Source: Alentia gelatinosa (Eukaryota; Annelida; Polychaeta; Phyllodocida; Polynoidae). From it: a DNA stretch of 64,000 nucleotides. The position numbers were made by a program, and so were the translations under genes. The notes under the pieces are model-generated. The model was given only the letters and a program-made list of their open reading frames with translations, made no database searches and was not told where the DNA came from. The DNA is taken from the NCBI GenBank assembly GCA_950022655.1, contig OX465590.1, positions 44,661,718-44,725,717 on the forward strand, read 5' to 3'. Below are positions 11,378-31,450 of this stretch, piece after piece; within the stretch, counting starts at the first letter, position 1, and each line of letters begins with the position of its first letter.

Positions 11378-11378
<1 letters not shown>

Positions 11379-12120
11379 TATAACTCCGTTTATATAAATA
11401 TAAATTATTAACCAGTACGTGCTACAGTATTATTCACTGCGGTCCCTACTTGTTTGTTGGCGTCACAGATATTTTTCTAGGTAACCCGGTAACCTGATGC
11501 GGTTACCAGAGTTGACTTGGTGACGTTTACCACTTTCAAATAACATTCCGCTCGTTTCCGCTCGTTTCTCCAGACAACGTTGTTGAAAGGAATTTAAAAA
11601 TCTCATTTCGAAATCACTTCTCACGGAAAACTTTGCATGATTTATATCAAAATTAATCCTGAAAAAAAAACCGCGTTGAAGAGCTGGATAGTTTCTAAAC
11701 ATTCCCTTTCACGTTCACAATCAAGTAAATGTCACTGCTTCAAACACTATCTGAACTCGGATGTTGTAATGCTGACTCGGGACGACTCATGCAATTTGAC
11801 AAAAAAAAACACAACTGAAAGAATTGAGGAAATGTTACCTTGAGAACAGCGCTCTTACCCTCAACTATAGAGAGCCATTCATAATAGAACAAAGCTGCTC
11901 CTTGTGCTCCTGAATTAAGTGTCATTTTAGAGATGGGAGCGATGGTAAAACGGAACTGTGAGTGAGTGAAGCGTACAAAACGGAGCGTGGTACGCTAACG
12001 ATACGAGTACATCACATAGCCGCACAAAATACACCCCTCCTCTCCTCTCTCCGCGTCCCCCTAGCGGACAATGTCAGCGTGCGGGCAACGTGCTTCCGGT
12101 TCCTCTTTCCGGGAGTTCCG
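11378..12120. other. No gene recognised
   Basis: Short frames only; no splice-bounded exon or RNA gene seen. Some CCGGTTCCGGGAGT repetition around 12095-12130. Confidence 0.35.
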
Positions 12121-12760
12121 GTTCCGGGAGTAAGGATGTTCGAGACGATTCATATTAGCCACCTAAAGGAATTTATTATCCACCTAATACAAAGTGTCTA
12201 TAGAAAACACATAGGGAGTGTGTATCACCATACCTGGAGAATACAGATATATCCACCTAATACAAAGTGTCTATAGAAAACACATAGGGAGTGTGTATCA
12301 CCATACCTGGAGAATACAGATATATCCACCTGATACAAAGTGTCCATAGGGTTGACCTCAGAAGTAGACACGTAGTAATATCCGATAGTATGCGAAGATA
12401 TTGCATAGTGTCAACTCCGAGGAGCATAAGACTGCTTTTATCTGAAACCATTCAATATTGTATTTATTGTCCACCTGTCATATCAGTTTGTTTTAGTTGT
12501 GCACTTTTTTCTCCGGTTTTTGCAGCCGGAGCGTACAACATATCTGTATGCTCCAGGTATGTAGATACACGATTTTGTATTAGGTGGCTATGTCTATATG
12601 CTCAGGGTATGGTGATAGACACTCCCTATGTGTTTTCAATGGACACTTTGCACTAGGTGGGTATATCTGTATGCTCCGGGTATGGTGATACACATTTGGT
12701 GTGTTATCTATGGACACTTTGTATTGGGTGGATGATAAAAAATTGCAGAGCAGTGAATGT
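12121..12760. mobile_element. Foldback element family J with tandem-repeat arms
   Basis: The left arm has three direct ~72-bp copies of CCACCTAATACAAAGTGTCT ... GGGAGTGTGTATCACCATAC (from about 12178, 12250 and 12323). The right arm (12540-12730) has the same unit inverted. The centre is a hairpin with TCAACTCCGAGGAG. Related pieces are at 38867-38910 and 52250-52430. Confidence 0.75.
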
Positions 12761-12984
12761 TAGAAGGAGGTGATCAGAAGACTGCATGACGCTGAGATGC
12801 GGGTCACAGGCCATGCCTGGAGGTAGGAGACAGTGTGAGGTAAAATACTCGTTCAGACGATGTCCCGTGCGGAGAGACATGAGAGAGGCACGGCGCCCGG
12901 GGGTGGTCAGATACAGCCGAGATCAGCCGAGGTCGACGGAGGTGAGGCCCGCGCAGCAGGCAGGGAGAGGCGGGGGTTAGCAGG
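12761..12984. other. GC-rich unique segment, no gene assigned
   Basis: A GC-rich stretch with a 64-codon open frame rich in Arg and Gly. No matching splice pair or family resemblance seen, so it is not called coding. Confidence 0.3.
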
Positions 12985-13420
12985 CCACCCCTCCCATAGG
13001 ATCTGATACTCTCTACGTCGTTATCTGTACAGGGTTCTCACTGCGCTCTATGGGAGAGGAATTCTTAACGAACTAGGCTTAGAGCCTTGAGAATCCACTG
13101 GCCTGCCTCCCATGCTACACCACTCTCATAAGATCTCACACTCTCTAAGTTATATTCTGTACAAGGTTCTCACTGCGCTCTATGGGAGAAGAATTCTTAG
13201 AGCCTTGAGAATCCACTGGCACACAGAATTCCCGCTAGGTGGGATCATTGAGATTATAGGAATATTTGGGTTAGATTAATGTACGTCTTTAGCACGGGAG
13301 GCAGGCCAGTGGATTCTCAAGGCTCTAAGCCTAGTTCGTTAAGAATTCTTCTCCATAGAGCGTAGTGGGAGTACAGAATACGACTTAGAGAGTGTGAGAT
13401 CTTATGAGAGGGGTGCGCAG
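12985..13420. repeat. Dispersed repeat O, copy 2, inverted-repeat form
   Basis: CTTAGAGCCTTGAGAATCCA and CTCATAAGATCTCACACTCT are each present several times in both orientations, forming a long imperfect palindrome. Related to 7430-7860. Confidence 0.7.
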
Positions 13421-13480
13421 TAAGAATTTGTTTTATAGCACATCGAGAAATGAAAGACACTAATTCTGCAATTTTATTTT

Positions 13481-13666
13481 TGGAAGGACACCTAATATTG
13501 GGGCAGTTGACCACGTTCTTGCGATTAGGCACCAAAAAGAACCTTTACTATGCGTGGTGGATTGGCATGTCTAGAAATTTGTCTACGATTTTGCATCTTC
13601 CCGATGTGTCTCCGATATTTTCTTTTTCTATCGGTGCCATATCGGTAGGTCTAAATTTCTATCGTG
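13481..13666 (+). mobile_element. MITE family A fragment
   Basis: Internal part of family A (GGGGCAGTTGACCACGTT, GGATTGGCATGTCTAGA) without the outer inverted repeats; joined on both sides to repeat O sequence. Confidence 0.75.
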
Positions 13667-13719
13667 ATTGTGTGAATGTGAGATCTTATGAGGTGCACCC
13701 GCAGTCTAAACCAACTTAA

Positions 13720-14420
13720 CTGCTCATTAAACCTGCCTCAGATGGTACATGCATCCTCCACTAAAATATGAAAAGCAAATTAGTGTGGATTTTATTTGGC
13801 AGGTTAATTCTCAATGGTTTGTCCATGACTCCCAAATCGCGACCAGATATCGATTCCCGAACGACAGGTGGTATTTGCGCGCGCCTGATAGTTGGCAGAA
13901 GGTGCACATTTGGGGACGGTAATAGACCCACAGGTGCCTCATAAGTCTCTACTAAAAGGTGCTCCTGGGTTTATCTATACCTCACCAATTAGCTGCCGTT
14001 ATGGAGTGTGTTCGATCCTTACCACGTATCGTTAAGTTTTACGCGCTCAGGGTGACGTAATGAGCACTTCCTGAAACGTCATCATATTTGAACCCCTTAT
14101 CAGTGACGTCACTCCGCTGACCCCCCGTATTGATGACGTCAGGAGGGGTGAGTGATCTCTCCTCTCATATCAACGATTAATCGTCGAGATTATGACGATC
14201 CTGATATAATCGCCGTTTTATGAGCGGCACGGCTGTACTTTTCATGACGTCATTAAGGTTATTACCTGAGGCGAGGGGAAATACTCTCCAAGCGTTGGCG
14301 AACTTTGTGTTATGTACGGGTAAAGAGTGGAGTACCTGGGGGGAGATGGTTATACAGGATTAGGATGTGGTCTGCATTAGGGAGAGGTATTAGATTTCAC
14401 TCAGTCGTGGTCGACTTTAA
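13720..14420. other. No gene recognised
   Basis: Several TGACGTCA or near-CRE motifs at about 14100-14140. No exon, RNA gene or clear repeat boundary was found. Confidence 0.35.
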
Positions 14421-14935
14421 TCTTTAAAGACAAATGCTGGAAGTTATCGCAATGCCTTCTGTGACCACCCTCAGAACTACTATTTGACACTGGTGCTGTT
14501 GTCTGGTTTCATGAAATTATTGCAGTTTCCCATAGGCACCAATAGATAAGCACTTACCTTCTTCAGATGGCCTTCCCATAGAATTAAGCATGGTGACATA
14601 GTATTCTTTAGCATTTGACATAAATTTGTATATGTTCCCAACTATCAGAATCCAGAACTATTTGAAGATAACAATAGAACATCAGTGTCATCTTGCCACA
14701 TAGTCAAAATATTGCCGTTTCCTATAGACACCAATAGTTAAGCACCCACCTTCTTCAGATGGCCTTCCCATAGAAGTTAGCACCGTGATATGCCATGTTT
14801 TGCATTTTCCATTTGCTGATATATGGAGCTTATATCCTGAGTTATTTTACAAAATCACTAGAATTTAGAAATCACCCAACTACCAGCATTTGTCTTTAAA
14901 CTTCACTCAGTCGTGGTCGGCTTAAATCTTTAAAA
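14421..14935. mobile_element. Inverted-repeat element M, copy 1
   Basis: TAAAGACAAATGCTGG (left) and CCAGCATTTGTCTTTAA (right) form terminal inverted repeats. Inside, AGATGGCCTTCCCATAGAA occurs twice in direct orientation. A second copy lies at 44455-44935. The flanks also repeat TCGTGGTCGRCTTAAATCTT. Confidence 0.75.
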
Positions 14936-15540
14936 TTCCGCCCTGTACCAGTCAGCGCCCTGAAGCACCCACCCCTCCTCCCTCCTCCCCCTCTCCCCCA
15001 CTTTACCACAACTACCCTCAGGCGACTGCAGCGCTCCTAGCGGCTTCACGTCACGGATGACGCGCAGTGACGTCATAACGTCAGCGTCCGCCACTCAATC
15101 AGTGCTGACACCTGGGAGTCAATATTGGCACTTCCTAATGAAAAACCTCTGACAATGTCTCGGTCCGCGGGGTGTTGTATAGATCCCCGGAACCCCAGCA
15201 TGGTAATTAATGGCTCCTGACGATATCGATACGCAATTCTTTCCGAAGTGTGGCTCCTTTCATAATAACCTCCTTGGAAACAGTTGAGGCGTAGACGACG
15301 GTTTTTAAAAGAGACCGATTGGATTCATTGTACTTTCCACAGATTATGGCAAAGTCCTGAGGGTGATTATTTGATCGAAACGATCCAGATTTTCATGAAT
15401 TTCATGAATTTAGTTAGTTTTTATTCATGTAGATACATCTACATTAGTAGCATAACAGGAACAAGATCAAGTTTTTTGTAACTTCATAGTATATAATTAT
15501 GCAGATATTTGTTATTATCTTTCGTTTGGAATTGATTACA
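14936..15540. other. No gene recognised; pyrimidine patch and CRE-like sites
   Basis: A CTCC-rich patch at about 14970-15005 and a TGACGTCATAACGTCA cluster near 15070-15085. No exon supported. Confidence 0.35.
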
Positions 15541-15542
15541 GT

Positions 15543-15829
15543 TAGGCCTGGCGTCCATCTACTACGATAGAAATTTAGACCTACCGATATGGCACCGGTA
15601 CAAAAAGGAAATATCGGAGACATATCGGGAAGGTGCAAAATCGCAGACATAGGTATAGACGTGCCAGTCCACCACGCATTGTATGGGCTTTCTATCTGCG
15701 TCTAATCGCAGAAACCTGGACAACTGCCCCGATATTAGATGAGCTTCCGACGCGATTCTGATTTTTTTATCGGAATGTGCATCGTAGACCATATCGGAGC
15801 CATATTGTAGTAGGTGGACGCCGGGCCTT
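15543..15829 (-). mobile_element. MITE family A, full-length, reverse orientation
   Basis: Ends GGCCTGGCGTCCATCTACTA and its complement are both present; length about 287 bp. Flanked by TTA on both sides, one of the clearer target-site duplications. The interior matches the reverse complement of the other copies. Confidence 0.85.
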
Positions 15830-16025
15830 ACAGGAACAAGTCTTTTGTACATTCATAGTATACAAAAAGTCATTTTCTTTATTATCTTCCGTTTGGAATT
15901 GATTACAGTAAAAGTCGTTGTAAAGTAAGAAATTCTATGAGATGAAGCAAAGGCAATTTTCTTAATTAGCATCATAATAGTAGCATGGAAATAAATGCGT
16001 ATTTTGTCGAGAAACATGTAATTAA

Positions 16026-16229
16026 CCTTTCTGTAGGCTACATTTCAACAGTGCAGGGTGTCTCTGCGATCTACCTGATAATTTCTGAGACAAAAATCCC
16101 ATCAAGGGTTCCTGAATTTGGAGTTCTGAATAATTCTCAAATTCTACACTAGGCAGATCATATTCTGTAGAATGAATAGGTATATCAAAATAATCATTGG
16201 TTGTTTTGGACATACATTCAATCTAGTAG
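16026..16229 (-). other. Possible orphan exon or pseudo-exon
   Basis: On the - strand a 63-codon frame has ordinary protein-like composition (YFDIPIHSTEYDLPSVEF, then LMGFLSQKLSG). It is bordered by an acceptor-like CTGCTACTAG and a CAG/GTAGAT donor-like site. I do not recognise the protein. With no partner exon seen on this strand, it may be a chance frame or a decayed gene piece inside the AstC-like intron. Confidence 0.2.
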
Positions 16230-16424
16230 CAGTAGAAAATATTTAGATATTCTTCCACCTCGGTAAATGTTTCTGACTAAAACAACTCGGAACTGATTTC
16301 ATTCAGGCACACTAACCATGTCTCCATATAATATTCACACACTGTAAAAAGCTTTGATAACCAATCTCTTGTTACACTAATCCATCAGTGAGTTCGGCCC
16401 TTGTGGGGGACTTCATCTCTGCTC

Positions 16425-16725
16425 TTTATCTCACCCCTGGAATAAATGTCCAGAGGCTTAACATTGGGACTTGTTCTCCATTCCCCTAAGAGTATTGCAG
16501 TCCGTTCTCCATGGTTCATATTCTGTGTGTCGCCCATTCTGCTAGTGTGTACAGGAGTGAGATAAATACAGAAAGCAACTCGTTTTGGTCAAAGAAGTCG
16601 TTCTCCAACTCGCTTGAATGCTACGTGATATTCACTCAGCTGTCGCCTCGTTCATATCACTCTGCATCAAAGTCATGGAGACCGACGACTTTGACTAAAA
16701 TTTGTTGGTTCTTCTTTAATATTAC
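16425..16725. mobile_element. Dispersed element H, copy 2
   Basis: Inverse orientation relative to 8680-9160, sharing TCACTCAGCTGTCGCCTCG, CATATCACTCTGCATCAAA and GCAACTCGTTTTGGTCAAAG. Confidence 0.65.
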
Positions 16726-16975
16726 GCCAGGCATTAATATCAAGACTAATGGCTCCACCTTTTTAATAGGGGACTTTTAGATTATCAGTCAAGTACATCT
16801 TGCCTTAGGCGCTCTACTAGTTCGGTCGACCTGGCCTGAAGTGGAGTTTTTATACGTGGGTTCTAACCTGTCGTTAGTTATCACCGAATCAATCTCCTCC
16901 CACTCTTTTTCACATGTTACTTTCTCTTTTTTTTTTTTTTGGTTTCGTTTTAACAGATTTTGTTGCCGTTATGTT

Positions 16976-17245
16976 AAAGTCCAGCGTCCACCTACTACAT
17001 ATCCACCGTGCTTCGGTAGGTTTTATTTTTCAGTGCCTAATCACAGAAACGTGGTAAACTGCCCCGATATCAGGTGACCTTCCAACGCAATTTTGATCGG
17101 GAGTGTCATGGCATGTTGGGAGTGTGTCACAGAGGTCTACGATAGGAAATGTTGGTGGAGCGAGCACTTCCTGTCACGCCCGACAACACAATCGTAAAGC
17201 CCCCCTTCTTACGACAAGGCTGCGAGAAGCGCCGATTGGATCTGG
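16976..17245. mobile_element. Family A end fused to family B fragment
   Basis: 16976-17104 is a shortened family A piece (CAGCGTCCACCTACTAC, then GTGGTAAACTGCCCCGATAT). From about 17105 the text matches family B at 21905-22010 (TCACAGAGGTCTACGATAG, CTTACGACAAGGCTGCGA). It looks like a recombinant or serial insertion. Confidence 0.6.
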
Positions 17246-17425
17246 CTATAGTGCACATAGCTATTGTGTTATGGAAGTCGCCATCTTGACCCCCTTCACC
17301 AAACAAAACACCAGATGGCAGGTCCAGTTATCAATGAATTTCATTAAAAATATTATTTTTTGTTTGCCATAAAAGGCTTTAGCATCGTCTCAAGAGTATC
17401 TATAGATTATGACAGCAGAGAACTG
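17246..17425. repeat. Dispersed repeat P, copy 2
   Basis: Shares CACATAGCTAT, ACCAGATGGCAGGTCCAG and TCTATAGATTATGACA with 10379-10560. Confidence 0.6.
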
Positions 17426-17490
17426 TGGTGTGCACAGGGGTGAGCGAAGTACAGAAGGCAACTCCTTTTGGTCAAAGAACAAAGTGCCAG

Positions 17491-18051
17491 ATTATAGGGG
17501 ACAGAGCCATTGTTGGTTCATGAAACAGCCACTAGGTGGTGGGAGGAGAAAACCTGTATTATGAAATTCAACTGCCTTTCAATGTTTTACCATGGTTCCT
17601 TTGACTCTCTACACCCATCCCAGAGCAGGATGACATAATAATTAAACCCAAGACATGATATTTTCCGCATGAGACACTTTATATACTATGCGAGTAAGGC
17701 TAGAGTTGCGACACTTCCCAATTATCACTCACTTCTTTTCCACCTCTATTAGTGAAGAACAGCTACTTTTCCACCTCCATTAGTGAAGAACAGCTACTTT
17801 TTCACCTCCATTAGTGAAGAACACCTACTTTTTCACCTCCATAAGTGAAGAAGAAATACTTTTCCACCTCCTTTAGTGAAGAACACCTACTTTTTCACCT
17901 CCATTAGTGAAGAACACCTACTCGGGGGGGCGTCATGGCGCCAATGGATCATAGGCTATATGCCTTATAGATCTGTCCCCCCAATGGGCCTGCCATACTG
18001 CTGGCCACCTAGTGACTGCTTTATGAACTAACAATGGCTCTGTCCCCTATA
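17491..18051. mobile_element. TIR element with internal 31-bp satellite
   Basis: Terminal inverted repeats start TATAGGGGACAGAGCCATTG and extend through GTTCATGAAACAG and CACTAGGTGG (left 17493-17545, right about 18005-18051). Inside, six tandem 31-bp units of CACCTCCATTAGTGAAGAAC run from 17740 to about 17922. Non-coding. Confidence 0.8.
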
Positions 18052-18652
18052 CCCTAATAGCCATGAGACAAAGCGTATTGTCGTGCCGTATCCAGAGGCA
18101 ATGCCGTCTATTTCGCTTGTTTTAATGACGTTTTAATCATAGTTCTGCGCAGGGAAGGCGAGACCTAAGAAGATTAAATCAGTCTGTACGTGTGACTGCC
18201 GCCAGATGACACAATCTCAACCTGATTGTTCTGCTTAAATCGGATGAGAACCTACGGCCGACTTCAGGTGGAGATGAACAAAGGGCTTCATCAAATCACA
18301 AGCATTGTCTTTGATTCTGGACATGTGCACGGATAAAAAAAAGAATTAAAAACAAAAAAACTCAGAAGTCATAGGCCCGCCTCCCATACCCCCATGGGGA
18401 AGCGGTATAGGGCCTCTTCGAGACACAGAAAAGGATCTTATCACAAAGAATGTGCACGGATAAACGTTTGCATTGGGTTGTTCTGTCTCTGGAGATCCCC
18501 AATGGGATGAATGTTTCCTTTAATAATAGGGATTTTGTATATGATCTGTCTTTTATTCTGTCGTTAGATAATGAATCGTTCAATTGTATAATGGTGACTC
18601 GGCAAAATACTCTCGCCATGGGACCAATGCTTTCTGGGGAAATATAGATGTA
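18052..18652. other. No gene recognised
   Basis: Short frames on both strands without domains. No exon supported. Confidence 0.35.
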
Positions 18653-18965
18653 CTGAAGAATCAGGATATAATTAATAGTCTATACATAACCTTCATAAAA
18701 ATATGTTAGGCCCTCGAGAAGTTTATTGATATATCTTGTCTAGCAATTTTTACCAAGGGAATATTGTGTGTACAATTACCGAACTTGGCGATACAGCCGT
18801 TTTTCCACTCGGGCCCTAGCCCCTCATTATAATGGTGGGTGTTAAGCCGAATGGACAGTGGGTACCATTTTTGTGTAAGTCTTTTGTACGACCCGACCTG
18901 GGTTGGAACCTAAGACCTCCCATGCTTGAGGCAAACTCCCTTACCATTTAGCCACCAAGCTTGGT
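18653..18965 (-). mobile_element. tRNA-derived SINE, copy 2 (longest)
   Basis: On the - strand: tRNA-like head with A-box GTGGCTAAATGGTAAGG and B-box GGTTCCAACCC, the shared body, and a 3' part with TACACACAATATTCCC and CCTCGAGAAGTTTATTGAT. The last is shared with 21285-21453. Confidence 0.8.
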
Positions 18966-19194
18966 AATACAAAACAGCTGGACCGTTTGTAGAAAATCTT
19001 CTGAGGATATGATGGTAAAAATTTCATCAGGATAGAATATTTGGTAGCCATAATACTCGAAAAGACTATCAGAGATCTACACCATTAGACTAAAGTGCTG
19101 ATTCCACAAGTTTCTGGTCTCTTCGGATCTTAATGAATAATATTATATAATATCTTTTCATGGTGAATGTACTGTGCGATAATATGAAGAGACG
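18966..19194. other. No gene recognised
   Basis: AT-rich spacer between the SINE and a foldback element. Confidence 0.35.
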
Positions 19195-19480
19195 TCACGA
19201 GTTTGAGTTTGAGTTTATTTATGCCACGCATTTTGTTGGCTCCATAATTTCACGAGTCGAAAACGAGTGACATTTCGGAGCCAACAAAATGAGTGGCATA
19301 AATAAGCTCAAACTCAAAAGAGTGGCGTCTAGATTTTATCCTACCCCGTTTCCATATTTTTTCAGTATCAGAAAGTAGTGGCATAAACAACACTTTATGT
19401 CACGCCCGTGAAATAAACAAATCCCATGTTAAGCCTATGGCGTTTTTTATTAGGGGTAGGATAATGTATGTAACCCAAAC
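19195..19480. mobile_element. Foldback element (TATCCTACCCC family), copy 1
   Basis: Inverted repeat with arms GAGTTTGAGTTTATTTATGC and GCATTTTGTTGGCTCC around a short centre. The flank carries ATCCTACCCC, TTAAGCCTATGGCG and TTAGGGGTAGGATAA. A reverse-oriented copy lies at 55364-55612. Confidence 0.8.
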
Positions 19481-20400
19481 CTTTTAATTGTCAATGAGGA
19501 ACATACCATTTGCTCCCAGTTCTAGTCCCCATCACCTGGTCTCCTGTGGCTATAATTCATGCTTACAGTCTTTATACTATTCTGTACCACGATAAGATAT
19601 TACTGGTTAGCAGATCTGTATAATGCATCGAGGAATTAAGTCTGGCTCTGCTCGCTCCCGGCGTAGATTCTGGTCAGATTCTAATCTCTACAAAAGAGTT
19701 TCCCCTCAGAACCACGGGGGAGGTTCTCACCGACAGTGAACGGGACTCTAAAAGTTAACAGCTTTCAGCTTTCAATGAACTTCAGAATGGTGCAGATGAG
19801 AGTGTATGAATGTATAATTTAGACGTCTCTGTCTCTATTCCCATAAAGGATAATGCTACAGTTGTTCTGCTCCCAGATTAGGATTTCCAGTTGATATGAA
19901 ATAAGAATCTTGTCGAATTTCGATTGGACTCAACTGGTTTTAACATCCCTCTTAGTCCCCATTGAGAATGTAAAGTGGGATTCACACGGTGGGATTCATG
20001 TACCTCACAGTGTGTTTTTCTAAGACAAATCCTGCTAAGATTTTGTACTTGAACACAATTTCTTCGTCTAAATTATAGGGATTCATTTCCCTGAGACATG
20101 TTTTCCTTCCTGTAATTTTTAAAACATTTCCCCCTAAAAAGGAACAAAATCGCATGTGATTTTGAGCCCTTTGAGGTACATTAATCCCATCGTGTGAATC
20201 CCACTTAAGGGGACTCAGTAAACCCTTGCCCATTGTTTAAAACTGTCTGATACCACAAACCATTGTAAACTAATTTAAGACAAATCTGATGTGCTTTGCG
20301 ACAAAAGAAGGAGACAATATTTTATTTATTTAGAAGGAAACCCACTTGATTTGATCTGCAGTCAAACGAGGTGGAGTGCGGACCAAACTATTTTCATCTC
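19481..20400. other. No gene recognised; small inverted repeat
   Basis: GTGGGATTCA (19976) and TGAATCCCAC (about 20195) with GTACCTCA/TGAGGTAC form an element of about 235 bp at 19975-20210. A short fragment of the 68-bp satellite (GGACTCAGTAAACC) follows near 20210. No exon. Confidence 0.45.
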
Positions 20401-20560
20401 GTGGGTTTCTGATTTTATCTCACCCTGTATAACATGACTTATTGGTAATCAGCCAATCAGCCATTGAGTATTTGATACACGACCTTCATGGCCGTAGAGT
20501 ACGAGTTCCTAATGTTAGGCCTATGGAGGAAAATACCGGGGTGAGATGATCAACATATGA
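20401..20560. repeat. TCTCACCCC-type foldback fragment
   Basis: Carries TTTATCTCACCCTGTATA and TAGAGTACGAGTTCCTAATG as in the foldbacks near 23.6, 31.6 and 60.3 kb. Confidence 0.5.
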
Positions 20561-20587
20561 CCATACCGCATACAAATTGTAAGTCTT

Positions 20588-20868
20588 AAGGTCCGGCGTC
20601 CACCTACTACGATATGGGTCCGATATGCTCTACGATGCACCTCCCGATACAAAATCAAAATCGCGTCGGAAGGTCACCTAATATCGGGGCAGTTGACCAT
20701 GTTTCAGCGATTAGACACCAAAAACCCCATACAATGTGTGGTGGATTGGCTTGTCTAGACATATGTCTACGATTCTGCACCTTCCCAATATGGCACTGAT
20801 TTTGACATTTTGTATCGGTGCCATATCGGGAGGTCTTCGATTCTATCGTAGTAGGTGGACGCGGACCT
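20588..20868 (+). mobile_element. MITE family A, full-length
   Basis: Both ends (GTCCGGCGTCCACCTACTAC and its complement) and the standard interior are present. Confidence 0.85.
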
Positions 20869-21284
20869 AACACTGTACATTGTTACAGGAATCATCAATC
20901 TGTCTTTAGTTGGTGGGTGAGAGAATCGTTCTCCGTACCATTTAGTGTCTTTGTCTCAAATGAGGAAAGTCGGGAAACACCTCTGTTTATAAGGTACTTG
21001 CCTCGTAGCACATGAAGCGGAACTGCCTCCAAATTAAAACAAAATTTATTCAATTTTATACAATTAAGAATCCTTTGTATTTGGCCCAAAAGTAATTGCT
21101 CACCGGATAATAGTCCCCTTCTGCTGTAGAGCAAGATAGAAGTCCCTATTGTTATAACCTTTGATATGGGTTTAATTCACTCGAGAAGATGGATAATAAA
21201 TACAATAACCGATGTTTTTTTGTGGACAGGCTGCTCTGTAAACTAACGCTCGTGTATTACTATGTGTCAACTCTTGTGGTTTGA
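20869..21284. other. No gene recognised
   Basis: Short frames only. The end of this stretch resembles the hairpin flank GATGGATAATAAATACAATA seen at 56.5 kb. Confidence 0.35.
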
Positions 21285-21453
21285 AGAATCAGGATATAAT
21301 TAATAGTCTATACACAACCTTCATAAAAATATGTTTGGCCCTCGAGAAGTTTATTGATATATCTTTTCTAGCAATTTTTACCAAGGGAATATTGTGTGTA
21401 CAATTACCGAATTTGGCGATACAGCCGTTCTTCCACTCGGGCCCTAGCCCCTC
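21285..21453 (-). mobile_element. SINE 3' part, truncated
   Basis: Matches the body and tail of the SINE at 18653-18965 but stops before the tRNA head, as expected of a 5'-truncated retroposon. Confidence 0.75.
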
Positions 21454-21649
21454 TTGTGGCCCCTTGTCCACAAAACCATCGATATTGCCTATTTATTTAA
21501 TCAATATCCAGGATAAAAGATATAAAAGATCGCTGTACTATCGCTATACATAAACACATTACTGTTACTATCACTGCTATGCAACGTATGAAGCACTTCT
21601 TGGATTGGGGACTTTGCTAAATATACGGAGGACATTTACAGCAGTGTAA

Positions 21650-22075
21650 GGGGGTGCGTCCACCAACCACGATAAGGCTGCGACAACGGCTTTCCGACAG
21701 GGTCCACGACAGCCCTACGATTGGAAGCCTTTTCGTAGCCTTGTCGTGGTTGGTGGACCACAGTTCCCGACAAGAGGCTACGACAAGGCCACGACAGGCT
21801 GCTTGTCGGGGGCCTGTCGGGGGCCTTCCGACAAGGTTACGACAAAATCGAACATGTTCGATTTTGGAGCCGTGTCGTGGCGTGTCGTGGCGTGTCGGGA
21901 GGTTGTCGCAGAGGTCTATGATAGAATATTTAGGTGGAGCGTGGACGTCCCGACAGGCTGCGACAAGGGGTCACGACAGCCCCCCTTCTCACGACAAGGC
22001 TGCGACAAGGCTGCAATTGAAACTTTCTTGTCGGCGCGTGTCGCAGCCCTGTCGTGGTTGGTGGACGCACCCCCT
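21650..22075. mobile_element. MITE family B
   Basis: Terminal inverted repeats GGGGGTGCGTCCACCAACCA extend into CGACAAGGCTGCGACA motifs that recur more than ten times inside in both orientations. Length about 426 bp, no transposase. It shares the design of family A (GCGTCCACC near the ends) with a different internal vocabulary. A relative is at 47515-47906. Confidence 0.8.
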
Positions 22076-22327
22076 AAAGATCCTAAAACTTTCGCATACT
22101 TGTAGAAAGTCTTCCCTCCCTGTGTCCAGCAACATGGCAGAAAAAAGATACATATTTGGTGCTGGGGTCGAGCCTATCAGCAGGAGTCAATGAGGTCATT
22201 TCTCAGTCACTGTCAAGCCTCGTCTTCACACTCACTGATCACGTGACGGAGGAGGAGGAGGGCCCCGAACATGTGTAGGGAATTTACTGACAAAAGACCA
22301 ATCACCGCGGGGCTAGATTAGCTGTGG

Positions 22328-22770
22328 TCGGGGCGGGGTGGGAGGGGGTGTAGAGAGGGATGAGGGGGTGGGGGTGTAGAGAGGGGTGTAGGGAGGGTGG
22401 GTGGGCAGGGGGTGTAGAGAGGGTAGGGGGGAGGGGCAGGGGAAGACATGGGGTACATTGTCATGTCACTTGGGGTTGGGGGCTGGGGTGGAGAGAGGAG
22501 AGAGAGGAGGGTGTAGGAAGGGTAGGGGTGTAGTAAGGGGTGAGGGGGGAAGGGGGAGGTGGAGGGTACATTGTCAGGTTACTTGGGTGTGTGTGGGGGG
22601 GGGGGGAGGGTGGCGGGGGTGGAGAGAGGAGTGAGGAGGGGAGGGGGGGGGACATTGCCAGATTACTTTAGCGTCTTGGGGGTGGGGGGTGCGGGCGGTT
22701 GGTGTTGAGAGGGTGGAGGTGTAGTAGGGGGAGAGGGGAGGGGAGGGGGGTACATTGTCAGGTTACTTCA
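22328..22770. repeat. G-rich imperfect repeat
   Basis: Strongly G-rich + strand of GGGGTGTAGAGAGGG-type units, three of them punctuated by GGTACATTGTCANGTTACTT at about 22451, 22564 and 22749. Several runs of four or more G could form quadruplexes. Frames through it are low-complexity. Confidence 0.85.
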
Positions 22771-22849
22771 GCGTCTTGAGCCCGGTACTCGCCAGGAATT
22801 CACAGGGAACGCTCTCTTCTCCTCACTCCGCGTCCGAGAAGCGTCCACC

Positions 22850-23010
22850 CGGAAGATGCGCGCGCACCAGGCTATGACGGCGGTAATTGCGCATGCTCAG
22901 AGGTGGGATGGGACGCGCGGTGGACCGGAGAGCCAATCAGGAGGCAGGGACGGCCATGTTGAGACGCGGTGACGGCGGGCGGAGAAAGCGCGGGAAACCA
23001 GACGCCAAAT
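22850..23010. promoter_or_regulatory. CpG-rich promoter-like cluster 1
   Basis: CpG-dense segment with NRF1-like TGCGCATGCTCA (22888-22899), CCAAT box AGCCAATCAG (22931-22940), a near YY1 CGGCCATGTT (22951-22960) and E2F-like GCGCGGGAAA (22988-22997). This set is typical of TATA-less promoters. No first exon with a clear donor could be defined, so it may be a lost promoter or chance. Confidence 0.35.
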
Positions 23011-23140
23011 GTCGTCTGGGAAAAAATGACCGCCAACTTTGCCGCCAATTATTCGCCGTATTTAGGAGATGGGGACTGGAACTTTTGGCTGTTTCTGTAT
23101 AAAAAGTCACTGACCTCCGCTCTCGGACATCTTTCTGATA

Positions 23141-23425
23141 GAAATTATGGTTACTGAGTCCGTAGGGATAGACTTTTGAGGTGTTTCAGCCTTGAAATGC
23201 AGCCCCACTCTGAAGATGGAGGGCCGTATTTTACTGTTGAAAGACTGAGAATTACATCGCTACGGACTCAGTTACTACATTTCCTTATCATCATATACCC
23301 GAAACCATCAAAACCGTCATTTCAATGACTTACATGCTAGCAGTATTTAACTTTGGCTTCCAGGTCACGAACATTAATGATGGTGCACCCCTAGCAGCGG
23401 GTAGTATTTCATAGATGGTCTACCA
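23141..23425. mobile_element. Foldback element family G, copy 2
   Basis: GGTTACTGAGTCCGTAGGGA and CTACGGACTCAGTTACTAC form the inverted repeat. The 3' block with AGCGGGTAGTATTTCATAGA matches 8270-8295. Confidence 0.75.
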
Positions 23426-23599
23426 CAGGACTATAACGATAAAGTTCATTTATTTTTCAATGAATTCACATGATGGATCGAAATTGCATATATCTACGTT
23501 TGCATACATTGTTCCTATTTATGTAGTTACTGTCTTGGTTTATCATGGAGAATTATGGACAGTTTTAGAATATCCTTGGACAGCATGTCATACTCTCTC

Positions 23600-23930
23600 C
23601 TTTGATCTTATTACTCTCTTTATCTCATCCCTGGTATTTTCTCTCCATAGACTTAACATTGGGAACTTGTATCCAACGCCCATGAGATATTGAGAAAAAA
23701 TATTCAATGGGGATTTTGTCACAAATGTTAGCCCATTAGTCAATGTGAGGGGTGAGATATATTCAAAAGGCTATTCAAGTTTATGGTCAGAGCTCGTATC
23801 CCATCGAGTTTGAATCGTTACATAATTCACGCAGCTTCGCCTTGTGAATAACTCCGCTATTCCAACTCGATGGGATATGAGCTCTGACCTTAAACTTTCA
23901 TAGGTTTCCTCTATAGCATCTCGATTATCT
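23600..23930. mobile_element. Foldback element family I, copy 1
   Basis: AGACTTAACATTGGGAACTT, GGGTGAGATATATTCAAAAG, then a hairpin (TCATATCCCATCGAGTT arms) with a CGCAGCTTCGCCTTGTG centre. A diverged copy is at 60270-60545. Confidence 0.7.
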
Positions 23931-24689
23931 CATTGGATAACAATTGTACATCGTTGCCACAACTCCGTGTCACTTTCACTATACTACTCACATGAACTGT
24001 TTAATATTCAGCCATACCCACATAGATATATCCAGCATTCGTACTGTCATAAACAATGTGGACTCCAACCTTTATCTTACCCCTAATAAAAAACTCCAAA
24101 GGCTTAACATTGGGTCACTGTATTTGGTCTGATTCCGTCCATGTTTTACAGCTGCACGAATGTTTGCTCTACGGCCGGAACTATTTACACAGGTGAATAA
24201 TTCCTGATCGCTGATTGGTCAATTTTTCAATTTCTCTAGGTACATAATTTTTACTTTATGTCATGGCACGCCACATAAAATCTGCCTATGTTAAATCATT
24301 GACGTTTTTTTTTATTAGGGTAGGATAAAATAGAGGATTGGCACCTCGATATTTCGCTGGCGTACAGGAACCAGAGATAGATTTAAAGAAGAACATTCAC
24401 TTAACTTAAGCTGATTGCCAAAAAGTCTCGAGTCCGCTCGAATCACGGTGAGGACAGTTGTCTCAGCTGTCCACCAGGGCGGAGCCAGGATCGAGGCTTT
24501 TCAGGGCAGGGCGGGAGTAATCTTCGATTCAGATTGGCTGACACATTCTGGGTACGTGACCAATTAGGGGCAGGCAGAGAGGTCATAGACCATACTGGGT
24601 GTGTGCCTCGAGCGCCATGTTTACCCACGAGACACTGAATCGTGGGGGAATGGGTAGCATTCAGTTTGTATTTCGTAGTTTTATTTATT
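23931..24689. other. TATCCTACCCC-family fragments, no gene
   Basis: Contains pieces such as TTATCTTACCCCTAATAAAA with AAAGGCTTAACATTGGG (24070-24115) and TTATTAGGGTAGGATAAAA (24310-24330). No exon supported. Confidence 0.45.
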
Positions 24690-25125
24690 CTAACACTCAT
24701 ATAAATCTCCATAGACTTAACATGGTGTGACTGTATGCCATGGTCATTATCCTACCACTCATATATATCTCCATAGACTTAACATGGTTTGACTGTATGC
24801 CACAGTTATTATCCTACCCCTCATTTGTATCTCCATAGACTTAACATGGTGCAACTGTATTCCACGATTATTATCCTACCCCTCATATAAATCTCCATAG
24901 ACTTAACATGGTATAACTGTATTCCACGATTATTATCCTACCCCTCATATAAATCTCCATAGACTTAACATGGTGTGACTGTATGCCACGATTATTATCC
25001 TACCCCTCATATAAATCTCCATAGACTTAACATGGTGCGACTGTATACCACAGTTATTATCCTACCCCTCATATAAATCTCCATAGACTTAACATGGTGT
25101 GACTGTATACCACGGTTATGCCATA
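24690..25125 (+). repeat. 62-bp tandem array, 7 units
   Basis: ATAAATCTCCATAGACTTAA recurs with an exact 62-bp step (CTCC at 24707, 24769, 24831, 24893, 24955, 25017, 25079). The unit also has CATGGTGTGACTGTATGCCA and TTATTATCCTACCCCTCAT, so it derives from the end of the TATCCTACCCC foldback family. Confidence 0.95.
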
Positions 25126-25396
25126 TTTATATGCCACGGGTGACATTCAAAACATGTGACGGGGTAGGATAAAATCTAAACGTCACTCAATTTCATATAT
25201 TTGTTTCCATGGCATTCATTGTCTTCCATTACGGGTATCACTCAGTTCCATTTCGTGATATCATTGCGCAAAGACAACTCACGCCATATAAACAGTCCTA
25301 TCCAAGGACGGTTTTTAGATATAAGGATAATCCTAGCGGAGGACAGTCCCTGTGGACGATGCCCCGCAAAAAGGCTACAAAATGTTTAAAAGAAGT

Positions 25397-25677
25397 TAGG
25401 CCCGGCGTCCACCTACTACTATATGGCTCTGATATGGTCTACGATGCGCCTCCCGATAAATAATTAAAATCGCGTCGGAAGGTGACCTAATATCGGGGCA
25501 GTTGACCACGTTTCTGCGATTAGACACCGATTAAAACCCCATACAATGTGTGGTGGATTGGCATGTCTAGACATATGTCTACGATTTTGCACCTTCCCGA
25601 TATGTCTCCAATATTTGTTTTTTGTATCGGTGCCATATCTGTAGGTCTAAATTTCTATCGTAGTAGGTGGACGCCAG
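25397..25677 (+). mobile_element. MITE family A, full-length
   Basis: Left end GGCCCGGCGTCCACCTACTA and right end GTAGTAGGTGGACGCCAGG. Its right end abuts foldback family F directly. Confidence 0.85.
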
Positions 25678-26103
25678 GTGGGAATAGAGGTGGGAATAGA
25701 GGGAAACTATGTTCTGGTGAGAGAAAATCAAAGTTACTCGGTGAGGACTGGAAAAATTACTGCCCAAGGCGTCAGCCGCGAGCAGCAATTTTTCCGGTCC
25801 ACACCGAGTAACTTTGACTTTCTCTTACCGGTACTTGGTTTCCCTATTCCTACATACCTTCAAATATCGACAAAAATTGTTATTTCTTTACCTACGATAG
25901 CCCCCAAGAAAAGTAGCCACCCTTATCGAGTAACTGCAACAGCTATGCTTTCTTCCCGGCGCTCTTTATATCACGTGGTTAGCCCGAGACGAAAACGTCA
26001 GCCTGGGACGAAAACGTCAGCCTCGCTACCTAACTCATAATTACTGCACCCCTAGTAGCGGTCTGTAACTATAGAGTGTTCGGAAATGGGTATATAGGAA
26101 TAA
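25678..26103. mobile_element. Foldback element family F, copy 2
   Basis: GGGAATAGAGGGAAACTATG on the left, an inverted repeat with AATCAAAGTTACTCGGTGAG and AAAAATTACTGCCCAAGGCG, and an outer end GGGTATATAGGAATAACA. Confidence 0.75.
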
Positions 26104-27050
26104 CATCTACTGCTCAACAGCACATCTTATCTACTTCTTATCTTTGGTCTTTCATTGAAATAAAAAGCAGTCATTATTGACTGAGTCCATCGTCCCTTCA
26201 TTGATTCCAATGGCAACTTATACCTGTAGCAAATTGACTGGCTAATGTCGAATCAATAAACAAATGTACTGGTTTGTTTATTGATCAACAACAACAAAAT
26301 TCCTGATGGACAATGCTTATGCAATATTCTCCCTCCTGTGGTATATCACCATTACCAAGGTAGGTATGAAGTATGAAGTAAATGAAAGCTCTTACCTCAA
26401 GGCTGCCAGTAGAAGCTGCCTTCATTGATACACCATCTCTATTTGTTTATCACCTGAATGTCTTCTCAATCGTTTCTCTAAACCCACGGAGTAGATCTGT
26501 CTTTATCATTTGCATAGAATGCATGATATGAACGAGAGGACAGTAAATGGAATACACTGAGACTAAAGTCATTTCACTGAGATTAGTGTCTGTAATTTGC
26601 TGCAGTTGCTGCAGGAACTAGATGACGTCTGTGACTTTGATATCTGGGTATTAGTCTGGTTAAGTTAGGAGACGAGGGCATTTTATCTTCGGAAATTTTA
26701 CTTTTAAACTTTTTATATTTGGCGAGGATGCCAACCACAAAGTATGATTACAATTCTTTTTTTAAAGATTTTTAATTACATCTATGTATTAGCATTGTTC
26801 TTCCAACAAATCTTGATTGGGTTTTTGAAAAGATTAAGTAGTTCTAGTCTATCTTTATATTGTATATAACAAGAAAGTTGATGATAATCATTGGTCCTTA
26901 GATAAGTGTATTTAAACATTCTGCGTTACTAGTAACCTTGAATAAAAGGTCACAAAAAACAAGGATTTTGGCTGATAATGACTTTATAACCTTAGAAGCA
27001 CTATTGTATACTATACAACTCACGTAATCTAATATATTTTTTTCATGCTG
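26104..27050. other. AT-rich unique intron sequence, nothing recognised
   Basis: No inverted-repeat element, RNA gene or splice-bounded exon was seen. One of the longest stretches in the intron without repeat partners in this window. Confidence 0.4.
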
Positions 27051-27194
27051 TTTGGAAACTAGAGCTAAATTCCCACCTCGTTTCTGGTCGGTTCAAACCA
27101 CTAAAGAAGCAGCTTTCCCTCCGAAACAGGACGGAGCAGAACGAACAGACAAAGAAATATCTCTATTTCGTCGTCCCGTAATCCCGTTCCGGAT

Positions 27195-27420
27195 TTACGT
27201 TACGCCAGGACACTGTCCGTGGCACCACCTAGCGACATCAATTACAACTACATCCACTGTAAGCTTCACTCGCTGGTACCCCGAGTGCGCATGCGTCATT
27301 CTTGTCACTTCCGGCGGAAGTCTCAATGTCGTCTGCCCGCGTCCTTCTGACCTCAGTGACCTCTGCGGAAGGCAGCGGCCATTTTGGTGGTATAAACAAG
27401 ACGGGGTTATCAAAGTCAGC
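27195..27420. promoter_or_regulatory. CpG-rich promoter-like cluster 2
   Basis: An NRF1-type TGCGCATGCG (27286-27295), two head-to-head ETS cores in ACTTCCGGCGGAAGT (27307-27321), TGACCTC repeats (27349-27363) and a perfect YY1 motif GCGGCCATTTT (27376-27386) lie within 105 bp. This looks like a housekeeping, often bidirectional, promoter. Short ATG frames start on both strands: MSSARVLLTSV on + and MAAAFRRGH on -. I could not define a downstream exon on either strand. Confidence 0.45.
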
Positions 27421-27572
27421 ATACGAGAGGAGCTGCGCATGGACAAACCTGTGTGGTAGATTTAAAAAATATAGGTCTATTGATAAAAAAGTATATTTCA
27501 TTTATATTTGAGAACGAGGGGGTGAAATATTCTAACGCTGTTATCATAACAGGGAGAGCGAACGAGAAAATA

Positions 27573-27857
27573 AGGCCTGGCGTCTACCTACTATGATAGA
27601 AATTTAGACCTACCGATATGGCACCGATACAAAGAGCAAATATCGGAGACATATCGGGAAGATGCAAAATCGTATACATATGTCTAGACATGCCAATCCA
27701 CCATGCATTGTATGGGGTTTTTATCGGTGTCTAATTGCAGAATCGTGGTCAACTGCCCCGATAGTAGGTGACCTTCCGACGCGATTTTGATTTTTTATTG
27801 GGAGGTGCATCGTAGAGCATGTCAGAGCCATATCGTAGTAGGTGGACGCCGGGCCTT
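27573..27857 (-). mobile_element. MITE family A, full-length, reverse orientation
   Basis: Ends GGCCTGGCGTCTACCTACTA and GTAGTAGGTGGACGCCGGGC. It is followed at once by a family L block. Confidence 0.85.
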
Positions 27858-27985
27858 ACAGTAAAACCCCGCTTCTGGGACACCCCGCTTAAGGGAGTAC
27901 CTCGCTTAAGGAACACATCGCTTAAGGGGACAATTTGCTCGGGATGGAGGGTGTTCCCTTAAGCAGGGTTTTACTGTATTTTAAG
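27858..27985. repeat. Family L block (CCCGCTTAAGGGG)
   Basis: CAGTAAAACCCCGCTTCTGG, then CCCCGCTTAAGGGAG-type repeats and a closing AAGCAGGGTTTTACTGTAT. The ends are inverted, a small foldback. Confidence 0.8.
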
Positions 27986-28109
27986 TTTGTCTCACATACA
28001 TAGCCACTATGTGTAAATTTCAGATATTCCATTATCAATACTAGGAATGAATAATATGTTCATCATTGGTGAATGAAGGTGCAATCATAGATAAATAATA
28101 ACTAAAAGG

Positions 28110-28320
28110 TTTTGAATATGTAAAGTCTATGGATCCTTTCTGTAACCCACTTTCCTCTAGTCGACTTGCCCTTTCCGCAACTGCCTGAGTCTAGGATCCA
28201 AACATATCAAGCACCAGTGGGATTTGAGGTATTTCGGTATTGAATGATTGGTCATGGTCAGCTGGGCACGCCTATAAGACCCTGAGACACTGGTACCCTG
28301 CTCCTTTCACAATATCATCA
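28110..28320 (-). repeat. Dispersed repeat S, copy 1
   Basis: CAACTGCCTGAGTCTAGGAT, ATATCAAGCACCAGTGGG and GTCAGCTGGGCACGCC match the reverse complement of 49580-49785. Flanking DNA (27986-28110, 28320-28840) shows nothing recognisable. Confidence 0.7.
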
Positions 28321-28844
28321 TGAATAGCACGCAGTTAGTCACAGGATAGTATTTTTTGGCAGCAAGCTGGAAGTCCATTGAGCACTCTAACGTTTAGAGT
28401 GCGATATGCGGCAATGCATTTCATGCAGGAAATGCCACCATAAACATGTCAGTCCAGAACCAGTCAACACTCCATCACCAACCAGAGATTAGATTCGATC
28501 ATTGCCACGATCCGATGAACTGCAGTTAGCACTATTTATACACACCCTTATCAGATGTTATTCAACCTAACGAGAATACAATGAGGCAAAAAGGACTCAG
28601 ACTAAATGCTCCTGGATGGTAAAAGCACTGATCTGAATAGATCTCTCTTTAGCATCCTTCCTGTTTTCTGGTTCGGTTAGGTCTCGGATATGAGTTGCCT
28701 TTTAGGGAGATTGGTATCGTCCTGGGAATACACTATCAGCAGGTTTCTGTGCGTGTATCTTAATAAGCATCCACCAGTAAACATAATCACATGGATGATG
28801 TGTCATCAATGTCAATTTGTGCTACACGTGCTATGGAGGCTACG

Positions 28845-29255
28845 GATCGCTACTGAGTAGAATACAGCTTTTTGTTATTGTTCACCTAATACGGAGTCTC
28901 CATACTAAGCCTATGGAGCCTACAGATCGCTATTGAGTAGAATAAGGACCTCCGGAATCTCCTAGGAGAATACTGCTTTTTGGGCCACCTGACGGGTATT
29001 GTGGGAACTAATGTATATAAACATGCATGGCGCTTGGGTCGAATTTCTAATTATTTACAAGATTTTTTTCCTAATAATTACTCGAAAGGCGAGTAAGAAA
29101 TACAACATTACCATGATTTCGATCTGTGTGGCCGTATTCTCCTTGTAGTTGACATTACGTATTACTACTCGCTATCGCTCGGAGTTTTACTTCGCGTCAA
29201 CTACGCGGAGAATACGGCCACTCAGATCGAAATCTTGGAAATATTGTGTATGTAT
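28845..29255. mobile_element. Hairpin MITE (family E1), copy 2
   Basis: The same modules as 5545-5955 in reverse orientation: ATACTAAGCCTATGGAG, GGAGAATACTGCTTTT, GCCACCTGACGGGTAT, then the hairpin with GTGGCCGTATTCTCC and CTACGCGGAGAATACGGCC. Confidence 0.75.
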
Positions 29256-29430
29256 CCCCATACTTATAAATTAGTGACAAGACTGCCATACATTGAAACT
29301 TGTGATAATTATGTGGGCCTCATAAAACAATACATTGTTTTGGTTGTGGGTACTTAAATCCTAACCAGAATTGCTCGTTCAATACGTAAAAGCTTGGTAC
29401 GTGCTAGATTAGTAAGAGAGTGTTAGAGAG

Positions 29431-29600
29431 TAATAAGCAAAATCATCGTTACTGAAACCATAGGGATGGCTGTTTGAGTCTTTCATGACTCCTGACGATG
29501 GAGGAGGAGGGACGTATTTTATTTTACAAAACGGCATTTTTCAAGCTCAGTCACTACGTTTACTTATTATTGAATACGTACAAAACATTAAAAATGCCAT
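29431..29600. mobile_element. Foldback element family G, fragment
   Basis: GTTACTGAAACCATAGGGAT, GAGGAGGGACGTATTTTATT and CTCAGTCACTACGTTTACTT match families at 7970 and 23141. It lies just before the 89-bp array. Confidence 0.65.
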
Positions 29601-29633
29601 TTAATTTACTTAAATAGGCGGCATGCATTTCAA

Positions 29634-30681
29634 AGATCAGACATTGATGATATGAACCACCGCACATTATATAAGAGTACTATAGTCAAACTGTATGTAA
29701 ATGTCGGTATTTAACATTGCAGAGATCAGACAATGACTACACAAACCACCACACATTATATAAGTGTACTATAGTAAAACTATATGTAAATGGCTGTATT
29801 TAACATTGCAGAGATCAGACAATGAACCACCACACATTATATCAGTGTACTATAGTAAAACTGTATGTAAATGTCTGTATTTTACATTGCAGAGATCAGA
29901 CAATGAACCACCACACATTATATAAGTGTACTATAGTTAAACTGTATGTAAATGTCGGTATTTACATTTCAGAGATTAATGACTACACAAACCACCACAC
30001 ATTATATAAGTGTACTAAAGTTAAACTTTATGTAAATACCTGCATTTTACATTGCAGAGATCAGACAATGACTACACAAACCACCACCACATCATATTAG
30101 TGTACTATAGTAAAACTGTATGTAAATGTCGGTATTTTACATTGCAGAGATCAGACAATGACTACACAAACCACCACACATTATATAAGGGTACTATAGT
30201 AAAACTGTACCTAAATGTCTATATTTAACATTGCAGAGATCAGACAATGACTACACAAACCACCACACATTATATAAGTGTACTATAGTAAAACTGTACC
30301 TAAATGTCTATATTTAACATTGCAGAGATCAGACAATGACTACACAAACCACCACACATTATATAAGTGTACTATAGTAAAACTGTACCTAAATGTCTGT
30401 ATTTAACATTGCAGAGATCAGACAATGACTACACAAACCACCACACATTATATAAGTGTACTATAGTAAAACTGTACCTAAATGTCTGTATTTAACATTG
30501 CAGAGATCAGACAATGACTACACAAACCACCATACATTATATAAGTGTACTATAGTAAAACTGTACCTAAATGTCTGTATTTTACATTGCAGAGATCAGA
30601 CAATGACTACACAAACCACCACACATTATATAAGTGTACTATAGTAAAACTGTACCTAAATGACTGTATTTAACATTGCAG
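29634..30681 (+). repeat. 89-bp tandem array of 3' splice-site copies
   Basis: Twelve units begin at 29634, 29723, 29812, 29893, 29973, 30058, 30148, 30237, 30326, 30415, 30504 and 30593. Most are 89 bp; three that start at 29812, 29893 and 29973 are 81, 80 and 85 bp, and the one at 30058 is 90. Each unit starts AGATCAGACAATGACTACAC and ends with ATTTAACATTGCAG or a variant. The first 28 nt copy the start of exon 2 and the last ~60 nt copy the intron end, so each carries a TTGCAG/AGATC acceptor. The first unit lacks the AG context and the fifth has TTTCAG/AGATTA. The last six units form a near-identical block. Confidence 0.95.
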
Positions 30682-30843
30682 AGATCAGACAATGACTACA
30701 CGAACCACCTCCTGATGGCGTTGATCGACGCAGTCATCGCCGACGCCGAGGTTCGTGGCGCCAACCAGGAACAGCTCGGAGAACTGATGCGCAAGCGCAG
30801 TGGAATCCGGAAGTGCTTCTTCCACGCCGTCAACTGCTGGTAG
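30682..30843 (+). CDS. AstC: Allatostatin-C-like precursor, terminal coding exon
   Basis: This exon encodes residues 43-95 and the TAG stop. It begins Arg-Ser after TTGCAG in phase 0, continues with an amphipathic propeptide stretch (HLLMALIDAVIADAEV) and reaches a tribasic RKR at 79-81. The predicted mature peptide SGIRKCFFHAVNCW (82-95) has Cys87 and Cys94 six residues apart, able to form the single disulfide ring of allatostatin-C peptides. The C-x6-C ring with Phe-Phe and Ala-Val matches the family pattern, whose ring is often Y/F-F-N-x-I/V-S/T. There is no C-terminal Gly, so the end is a free acid. Such peptides act through somatostatin/allatostatin-C type G-protein-coupled receptors, usually inhibitory. 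Urotensin-like peptides were considered but their ring is shorter. Codon use is GC-richer than the surroundings, as expected of a conserved exon. Confidence 0.85.
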   Translation, partial: RSDNDYTNHLLMALIDAVIADAEVRGANQEQLGELMRKRSGIRKCFFHAVNCW

Positions 30844-31450
30844 AGCGTTCGTCCGGGGCGACACACAGACAGAGGATATTTTCCACACAATTTGTCGTTA
30901 GCGTGTCTTTAACAGCGAGCACGTAACGATATCAACGATCGACATCCATCTGAATGCACAATTTGTACAAAAGTTATCCCCATTTTGAATAATTCCAGAC
31001 GGAAGATTTCCAGAATGAACGGTTTGTAATATATGGATGATTTGACCATCGAATACCAGCAAATAATTGCGAGGGATTTATTGTTTGAAACAAAAAACTA
31101 TCGTCCGAAAATACGTTATCAGTTCAGTGTTGAACTTCGGGACAGCCACGGAAGATCTAAGGCTAATGACGAAAAACAAAACAATAATAAAAAGAAATCA
31201 CAATTTGTACTTACATGTGAGTCTTTACACTACTTTCCTTGCGTCTGTTTCAAAAACTGATTTAGAGATCAGAGCATCACCTATGACGTCACGGTGACAT
31301 CTCTGACGTCATAGCGATGCGTTAGAGAACCTTCTATGATGCGTGTTCCATCTAACGTCATTCACGAATAAAAAGAATTCCATGCATTGTAAATACTGTT
31401 CGAGAAAATCACTTATTCTTTTTACAAATAAAGTGAATAAAACACGTTGT
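30844..31450 (+). other. AstC: Putative 3' UTR with AATAAA signals
   Basis: About 600 nt without a known repeat follow the stop. AATAAA occurs at 31367-31372, 31427-31432 and 31436-31441; the last pair probably directs cleavage near 31455. Two TGACGTCA palindromes lie at 31284-31291 and 31304-31311. Confidence 0.6.

Follow-up and report, generated by a model that had tools for sequence, protein, structure and literature searches.

A minisatellite made of copies of a predicted 3' splice junction precedes the allatostatin-C-like terminal exon of a predicted neuropeptide gene in Alentia gelatinosa

In the annelid Alentia gelatinosa, the last coding exon of a predicted neuropeptide gene stands at the 3' end of a tandem array in which a splice acceptor recurs from unit to unit. 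This arrangement raises the questions of what the units are copies of, which of the acceptors would be used, and whether the array needs a selected function. The stretch of DNA analysed here (the window) comprises 64,000 nucleotides of a 54.6-Mb contig, in a genome of 1.23 Gb assembled into 101 contigs. An earlier note, made from the letters of the window, had claimed that an 89-bp array consists of copied 3' splice junctions in front of an allatostatin-C-like exon. The TRF annotation, the in-frame join of the two predicted exons and the comparison of a unit 20-mer with shuffled sequence bear this claim out (Table 1).

The plus-strand gene is predicted to start at the ATG at 1728. The predicted donor that follows exon 1, AAG/GTCAGC (the slash marks the exon border), has a score of 7.42, the 98th percentile of all GTs in the window, on an approximate generic matrix; the donor and acceptor matrices used throughout are generic approximations, not fitted to Alentia gelatinosa. 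Exon 1 and the terminal coding exon (exon 2) join in frame to give a predicted precursor of 95 residues, which reads MACQ...SEK/RSDNDYTNHLL...MRKRSGIRKCFFHAVNCW and has an N-terminus that is hydrophobic as judged by eye. The G+C content is 0.58 in the coding sequence of exon 2, 0.32 in the array and 0.41 in the 5 kb preceding the array.

Table 1. Coordinates of the gene, the array and other features in the window
Feature	Position	Strand	Basis or remark
Exon 1, coding part	1728..1853	+	42 codons; hydrophobic signal-like N-terminal stretch and first propeptide residues
Predicted intron, 28.8 kb, array at its end	1854..30681	+	Inferred from flanking exons
Minisatellite, 133-bp unit	6405-6802		TRF
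Minisatellite, 73-bp unit	12177-12349		TRF
Minisatellite, 31-bp unit	17735-17922		TRF
Minisatellite, 62-bp unit	24685-25119		TRF
Minisatellite, 89-bp unit, 12.4 copies	29626..30709	+	TRF, unit alignment
Leftmost, most diverged partial junction copy, acceptor AG lost (CATTTCAA/AGATCAG)	29626..29661	+	
Eleven complete copied acceptors, all upstream of the true acceptor at 30682	29723..30681	+	First base after AG: 29723, 29812, 29893, 29973, 30058, 30148, 30237, 30326, 30415, 30504, 30593
True terminal coding exon, ending KR-SGIRKCFFHAVNCW-stop	30682..30843	+	Homologues P0001-P0008
First AATAAA past the stop codon, candidate polyadenylation signal	31186..31191	+	343 nt 3' of the stop
Non-LTR retrotransposon, uninterrupted frame of 887 aa	34626-37289	+	Reverse transcriptase PF00078, E 5e-37
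Minisatellite, 68-bp unit	53752-54835		TRF

Precursors of the allatostatin-C type have an N-terminal signal peptide, and a six-residue cysteine spacing together with a dibasic site is typical of the type. The peptide KR-SGIRKCFFHAVNCW, with its two cysteines, sits at the C-terminus of the predicted precursor, and both the cysteines and the position fit this type. Specifically, allatostatin-C genes are described in excerpts of PMC8851493 as encoding a two-cysteine peptide in the C-terminal region of the precursor, as is the case here. An FXP motif is described there as a feature of "some" protostome members and hence is not strictly defining; the peptide of Alentia differs from those members in having FHA at the aligned place. 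Allatostatin-C is also among the peptides listed for the annelid Platynereis in an excerpt of PMC3890597.

A search of about 5.8 billion proteins at E <= 1 returned nine candidates, eight of them relatives of the precursor. One relative, P0004, is a protein of the annelid Paralvinella palmiformis. Another, P0003, has 94% identity to the precursor across the matched 54%, and the highest identity of any full-length match is 59%. The segment GIRKCFFHAVNCW is identical across all nine aligned sequences. In Pfam, the precursor has no family above the cut-off, the best being PF00214 (E 0.019, 15.9 bits versus 22.3); a PDB search with the precursor gave a single match, with an E-value of 8.3. The strings FFHAVNCW, CFFHAVNCW and KCFFHAVNCW have no occurrence in the open-licence literature searched.

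The array was aligned as 12 units, each cut from acceptor to acceptor and 80-90 bp long. A unit combines about 60 nt of intron end with the first 28 nt of exon 2, so that exon and intron sequence of one predicted junction lie together in the repeat. This composition had been proposed in the earlier note and holds overall, with the full 28-nt exon segment present in only 8 of the 11 complete copies; 8 nt are lost at 29812 and at 29893, and 4 nt at 29973. All eight full copies have A at exon position +21, where the true exon has G, a silent difference. The true exon separates from the units after AACCACC, as had been said from the letters alone. The 20-mer AGATCAGACAATGACTACAC occurs nine times with zero mismatches (in eight copies and in the true exon), versus an average of 0.00 per shuffle over 100 shuffles with up to three mismatches allowed. 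Equivalent acceptors stand in series, namely 11 copies and the true site. AG is kept in all 11 copies. About ten intact TTGCAG acceptors had been counted in the earlier note; ten of the copies are indeed TTGCAG, each followed by AGATCAGAC, and the one at 29973, which is TTTCAG, brings the number to 11.

Divergence is graded along the array, the 5' units being more diverged and the 3' units more uniform. The last five copies (30237 to 30593) are only two or three bases off the true junction between -45 and +27. At the other end, the segment at 29634 has CAA in place of the acceptor AG, and positions 29401-29633 show no resemblance to the unit beyond that of random windows (alignment score 20.0, mean of random windows 20.25). 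The six units from 30148 to 30593 have ACCTAAAT where the 5' units have ATGTAAAT, a change from TG to CC that perhaps represents a recent spread across half of the array. It lies upstream of the next acceptor, where, by the general consensus, it gives a slightly better branch-point-like site. Tandem arrays are difficult to assemble, and either the copy number or the array itself could be false; the point changes and indels of the units follow the graded order just described, and the genome is in 101 contigs, the largest among those listed being 181 Mb, which makes an assembly artefact very unlikely.

The exon is the source of the array and not its product. In the exon-start region, P0003 reads RGIDNDYTNRLLMAL, Paralvinella P0004 reads RDYTNKL and the window reads RSDNDYTNHLLMAL, with DYTN at the aligned place in both relatives. 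Because these residues recur in relatives, the direction is from exon to array; the exon-start residues predate the array, as judged by these alignments, and the exon fed it. The converse, in which the exon would owe its splice site and opening residues to a mobile or pre-existing satellite that inserted there, accords with the many further minisatellites within the window. Apart from the recurrence of the exon start in relatives, it is opposed by the genome search, in which repeat counts are lower bounds and very common words are skipped: unit DNA has at least 13 matches in the genome, and all 13 listed lie at the array locus. We consider a landed satellite extremely unlikely. A dispersed satellite or mobile repeat was likewise rejected as the identity of the array, copies elsewhere in the genome having been absent from this search with its lower-bound counts.

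P0003 offers a further view of the junction. Against the genome at E <= 10, it has a single match, which is exon 2 itself. Judging from where the similarity starts, the frame of P0003 is apparently open through intron sequence and on into the exon. Its 19 preceding residues resemble the array only slightly more than they do random windows: of 57 bases, 27 are codon-compatible at the true junction and 27-29 at the copies, and random windows in the same comparison have a mean of 23.3 (sd 3.2), with 16% reaching 27 and 6% reaching 29. This comparison suggests that the source of P0003 has no unit adjoining its exon.

Taken together, the data support the reading that the units derive from the predicted 3' splice junction of exon 2 itself and are not an unrelated satellite. 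As the anatomy of the locus, the genome search and the relatives show, an 89-bp stretch across the predicted junction of the intron and exon 2 was tandemly multiplied into a minisatellite at one locus, with the original exon retained at the 3' end of the array. Growth would probably have occurred by unequal exchange or slippage.

As the earlier note had proposed, all acceptors were scored. On the approximate generic matrix, which is not fitted to the species, scores range from 4.84 to 7.16 among the copies, against 5.01 at the true acceptor; nine of the 11 copies score higher than the true site, one is equal to two decimals and one is lower. Because ten copies equal or exceed the true site, a model based on local sequence alone would not pick 30682. 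Local scores give no reason for the copies to be passed over, a point against the reading in which the last acceptor dominates. The downstream context differs: the copies enter the A+T-richer array, while the true site enters the G+C-rich exon and then AATAAA. Most likely, 30682 stays the main acceptor, because it alone opens the full G+C-rich terminal exon with its stop and polyadenylation signals. The copies would then be intact decoys, locally about as strong as the true site, and splicing would leak to them to some degree at most. A single unit has no unusual RNA structure (z = 0.08); the stretch 30237-30843, namely the last five units and exon 2, folds with z = -2.46, and one of 20 shuffles is as stable, a result given no weight because repeats pair with each other.

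Leakage to a copy is predicted to yield a secreted protein that lacks the peptide. The earlier note was right in that splicing to a copy loses the peptide, since all 11 predicted products stop before it; its product of 26 in-frame codons follows from six of the copies, and the remainder give 10, 20, 37, 46 or 56 residues. Junction-dependent decay, in its classical form, is not expected for a stop in the last exon, and hence not for the copy-spliced mRNA. The predicted copy-spliced product retrieved no homologue in a protein search, a weak test because the normal precursor also has no full-length near-identical entry (its best full-length match being the 59% noted above).

The 26-residue open frame from six copies might be read as a sign that copy splicing makes real isoforms, namely secreted proteins with an intron-derived tail such as RSDNDYTNHHTLYKCTIVKLYLNVCI and a role of their own. 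Such products would differ from one another in length and sequence, the tail is exact in only two of the 11 copies, and the search just mentioned gave no homologue. Furthermore, variable columns are more frequent in the exon-derived part of the unit (14 of 28, partly from deletions) than in the intron-derived part (18 of 62), so the copied coding letters show no sign of being kept. Real isoforms are a highly improbable explanation.

We also considered cassette-exon use or recursive splicing of the copies, in which each would be joined on and subsequently removed in splicing to the next. The five 5' complete units (29723-30058) and the leftmost segment do contain a weak donor-like GTATGT or GTAAAT. 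The best donor in the array scores 3.66 versus 7.42 for the predicted real donor on the same generic matrix, and unit-to-unit splicing looks unlikely because the array donors are weak. In addition, the change from TG to CC deletes the donor-like sites in the units from 30148 to 30593, one of which keeps another weak one (2.6), and the acceptors read AG/AG rather than AG/GT. Such use of the units is scarcely plausible.

Is selection needed to explain an array of intact acceptors? Among the 12 units, one of the ten columns of the acceptor core is variable versus 32 of 90 overall, and 5 of the 90 ten-column runs, the core counted, are as low in variation. As a hint of constraint this is borderline; in a young array, homogenisation would likewise preserve the acceptors. 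The density of minisatellites provides a neutral expectation. In 20 stretches of 10 kb at chosen places, two of them adjoining the window, 23 arrays with a period of 30-300 were found in 199,600 non-N bases and cover 6% of them. The sample is uneven, with 11 of the 20 stretches free of arrays and seven of the 23 arrays in one stretch adjoining the window; with the two neighbouring stretches excluded, 16 arrays in 179,600 bp are left. If arrays are placed at random and their period averages 84 bp, some 1% of splice junctions (range 0.6-1.5%), or about 600-1,500 per 100,000 acceptors, are expected to fall inside a founding unit before selection. An array across a splice junction therefore needs no special cause, and with minisatellites so dense some junction-spanning arrays are expected without selection. 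This density suggests that minisatellites may have enclosed many other junctions of the genome as well.

The window itself holds 11 arrays of period 30-300 in 64 kb, the 89-bp array counted. Other repeats are present as well. The retrotransposon frame at 34626-37289 also has a match to the endonuclease-reverse transcriptase family PF14529, below the cut-off. At 40468-40732, inverted and direct repeats are nested in one another, their arms 34-56 nt long and 84-97% complementary, possibly a foldback or MITE-like element, and about 830 bp of ACT/ACC trinucleotide-type repeat occupy 59157-59985.

The array is most likely an accident of a repeat-rich genome. We regard as probable, on balance, the reading that a local minisatellite arose neutrally over a splice junction, the last acceptor staying dominant and the copies being decoys; no selected function is needed for it. 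The competing proposal with the most to recommend it is that the 11 decoys compete with the true acceptor, so that array length sets the share of peptide-making transcripts and more units mean less peptide. The local match between copied and true acceptors and the predicted truncation ahead of the peptide from every copy accord with it, as does simple arithmetic: with 5% taken per copy, 57% would reach the true site, and with 20% only 9%. The length of the array is known from one assembly, and we rate such competition as possible but rather unlikely. The stronger version, a selected length-dependent attenuator in which a variable decoy bank sets the amount of neuropeptide and differs between individuals or species, is more doubtful still.

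Under either reading, the array is a natural experiment in 3' splice-site choice, with 12 near-identical acceptors in series of which one is peptide-making, and it bears on what governs the choice: order, exon context or local strength. In vitro work by Reed and Maniatis in 1986 reportedly showed that the selection of one among identical duplicated splice sites depends on exon sequence and on proximity. If the copies are used, the length of a minisatellite would set the level of neuropeptide output; if unused, the array would show how well the context of a terminal exon overrides local signals.

The nearest natural case is in human CBS, where the insertion c.844_845ins68 is a 68-bp duplicated portion of the intron 7/exon 8 junction, as stated in excerpts of PMC2630376 and PMC4479818. 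The excerpt of PMC2630376 prints "donor" for this site, and we read the intron 7/exon 8 junction as an acceptor. As in the array, a splice site is present more than once within a short distance. Unlike the array, which has 12 acceptors before a terminal coding exon and is known from sequence, 844ins68 has two copies at an internal exon, and use of the distal site is reported: splicing strongly prefers the distal copy and normal mRNA results (PMC2630376, excerpt). Because the distal junction copy is strongly favoured there, we count 844ins68 in support of the neutral reading; the same dominance speaks against competition by decoys.

Two repeat polymorphisms offer partial parallels. The title of a 2001 study by Lievers et al., cited in PMC2630376, ties the 31-bp VNTR of human CBS to reduced CBS activity. 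In an excerpt of PMC2630376, the unit of this VNTR, c.1444_1467+7(16_21), crosses an exon/intron boundary in 16-21 copies. It is, like the array, a minisatellite whose unit spans such a boundary, but its coordinates indicate that it spans the donor, its unit is shorter and population data exist, whereas the array spans an acceptor in one assembly. In human TERT, at least nine repeats of the 38-bp VNTR of intron 6 are required for the minus-beta isoform (PMC3948165, excerpt). Here intronic repeat number alters splicing, the effect considered for the array, which lends the decoy proposal some support. The TERT repeat acts by RNA pairing more than 1 kb from the junctions and, in the excerpt, is not described as a copy of a splice site.

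Finally, tandem duplication that multiplies splice motifs has been described by Lehmann et al. 2010 as a route to intron gain (PMC2891723, excerpt). In that route, an exonic AG/GY is duplicated and a new intron arises; in Alentia, the array multiplies an acceptor that was already there and creates no good donor. No copied 3' splice-site array appears in the titles and abstract openings of the open-licence literature on the searched topic. Within the reach of these searches, some twelve copied acceptors in front of the last exon of a neuropeptide gene make a novel form of duplicated splice junction, set beside the two copies of CBS 844ins68, the donor-spanning CBS VNTR, the distant TERT repeat and the intron-founding duplications of Lehmann et al. 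2010.
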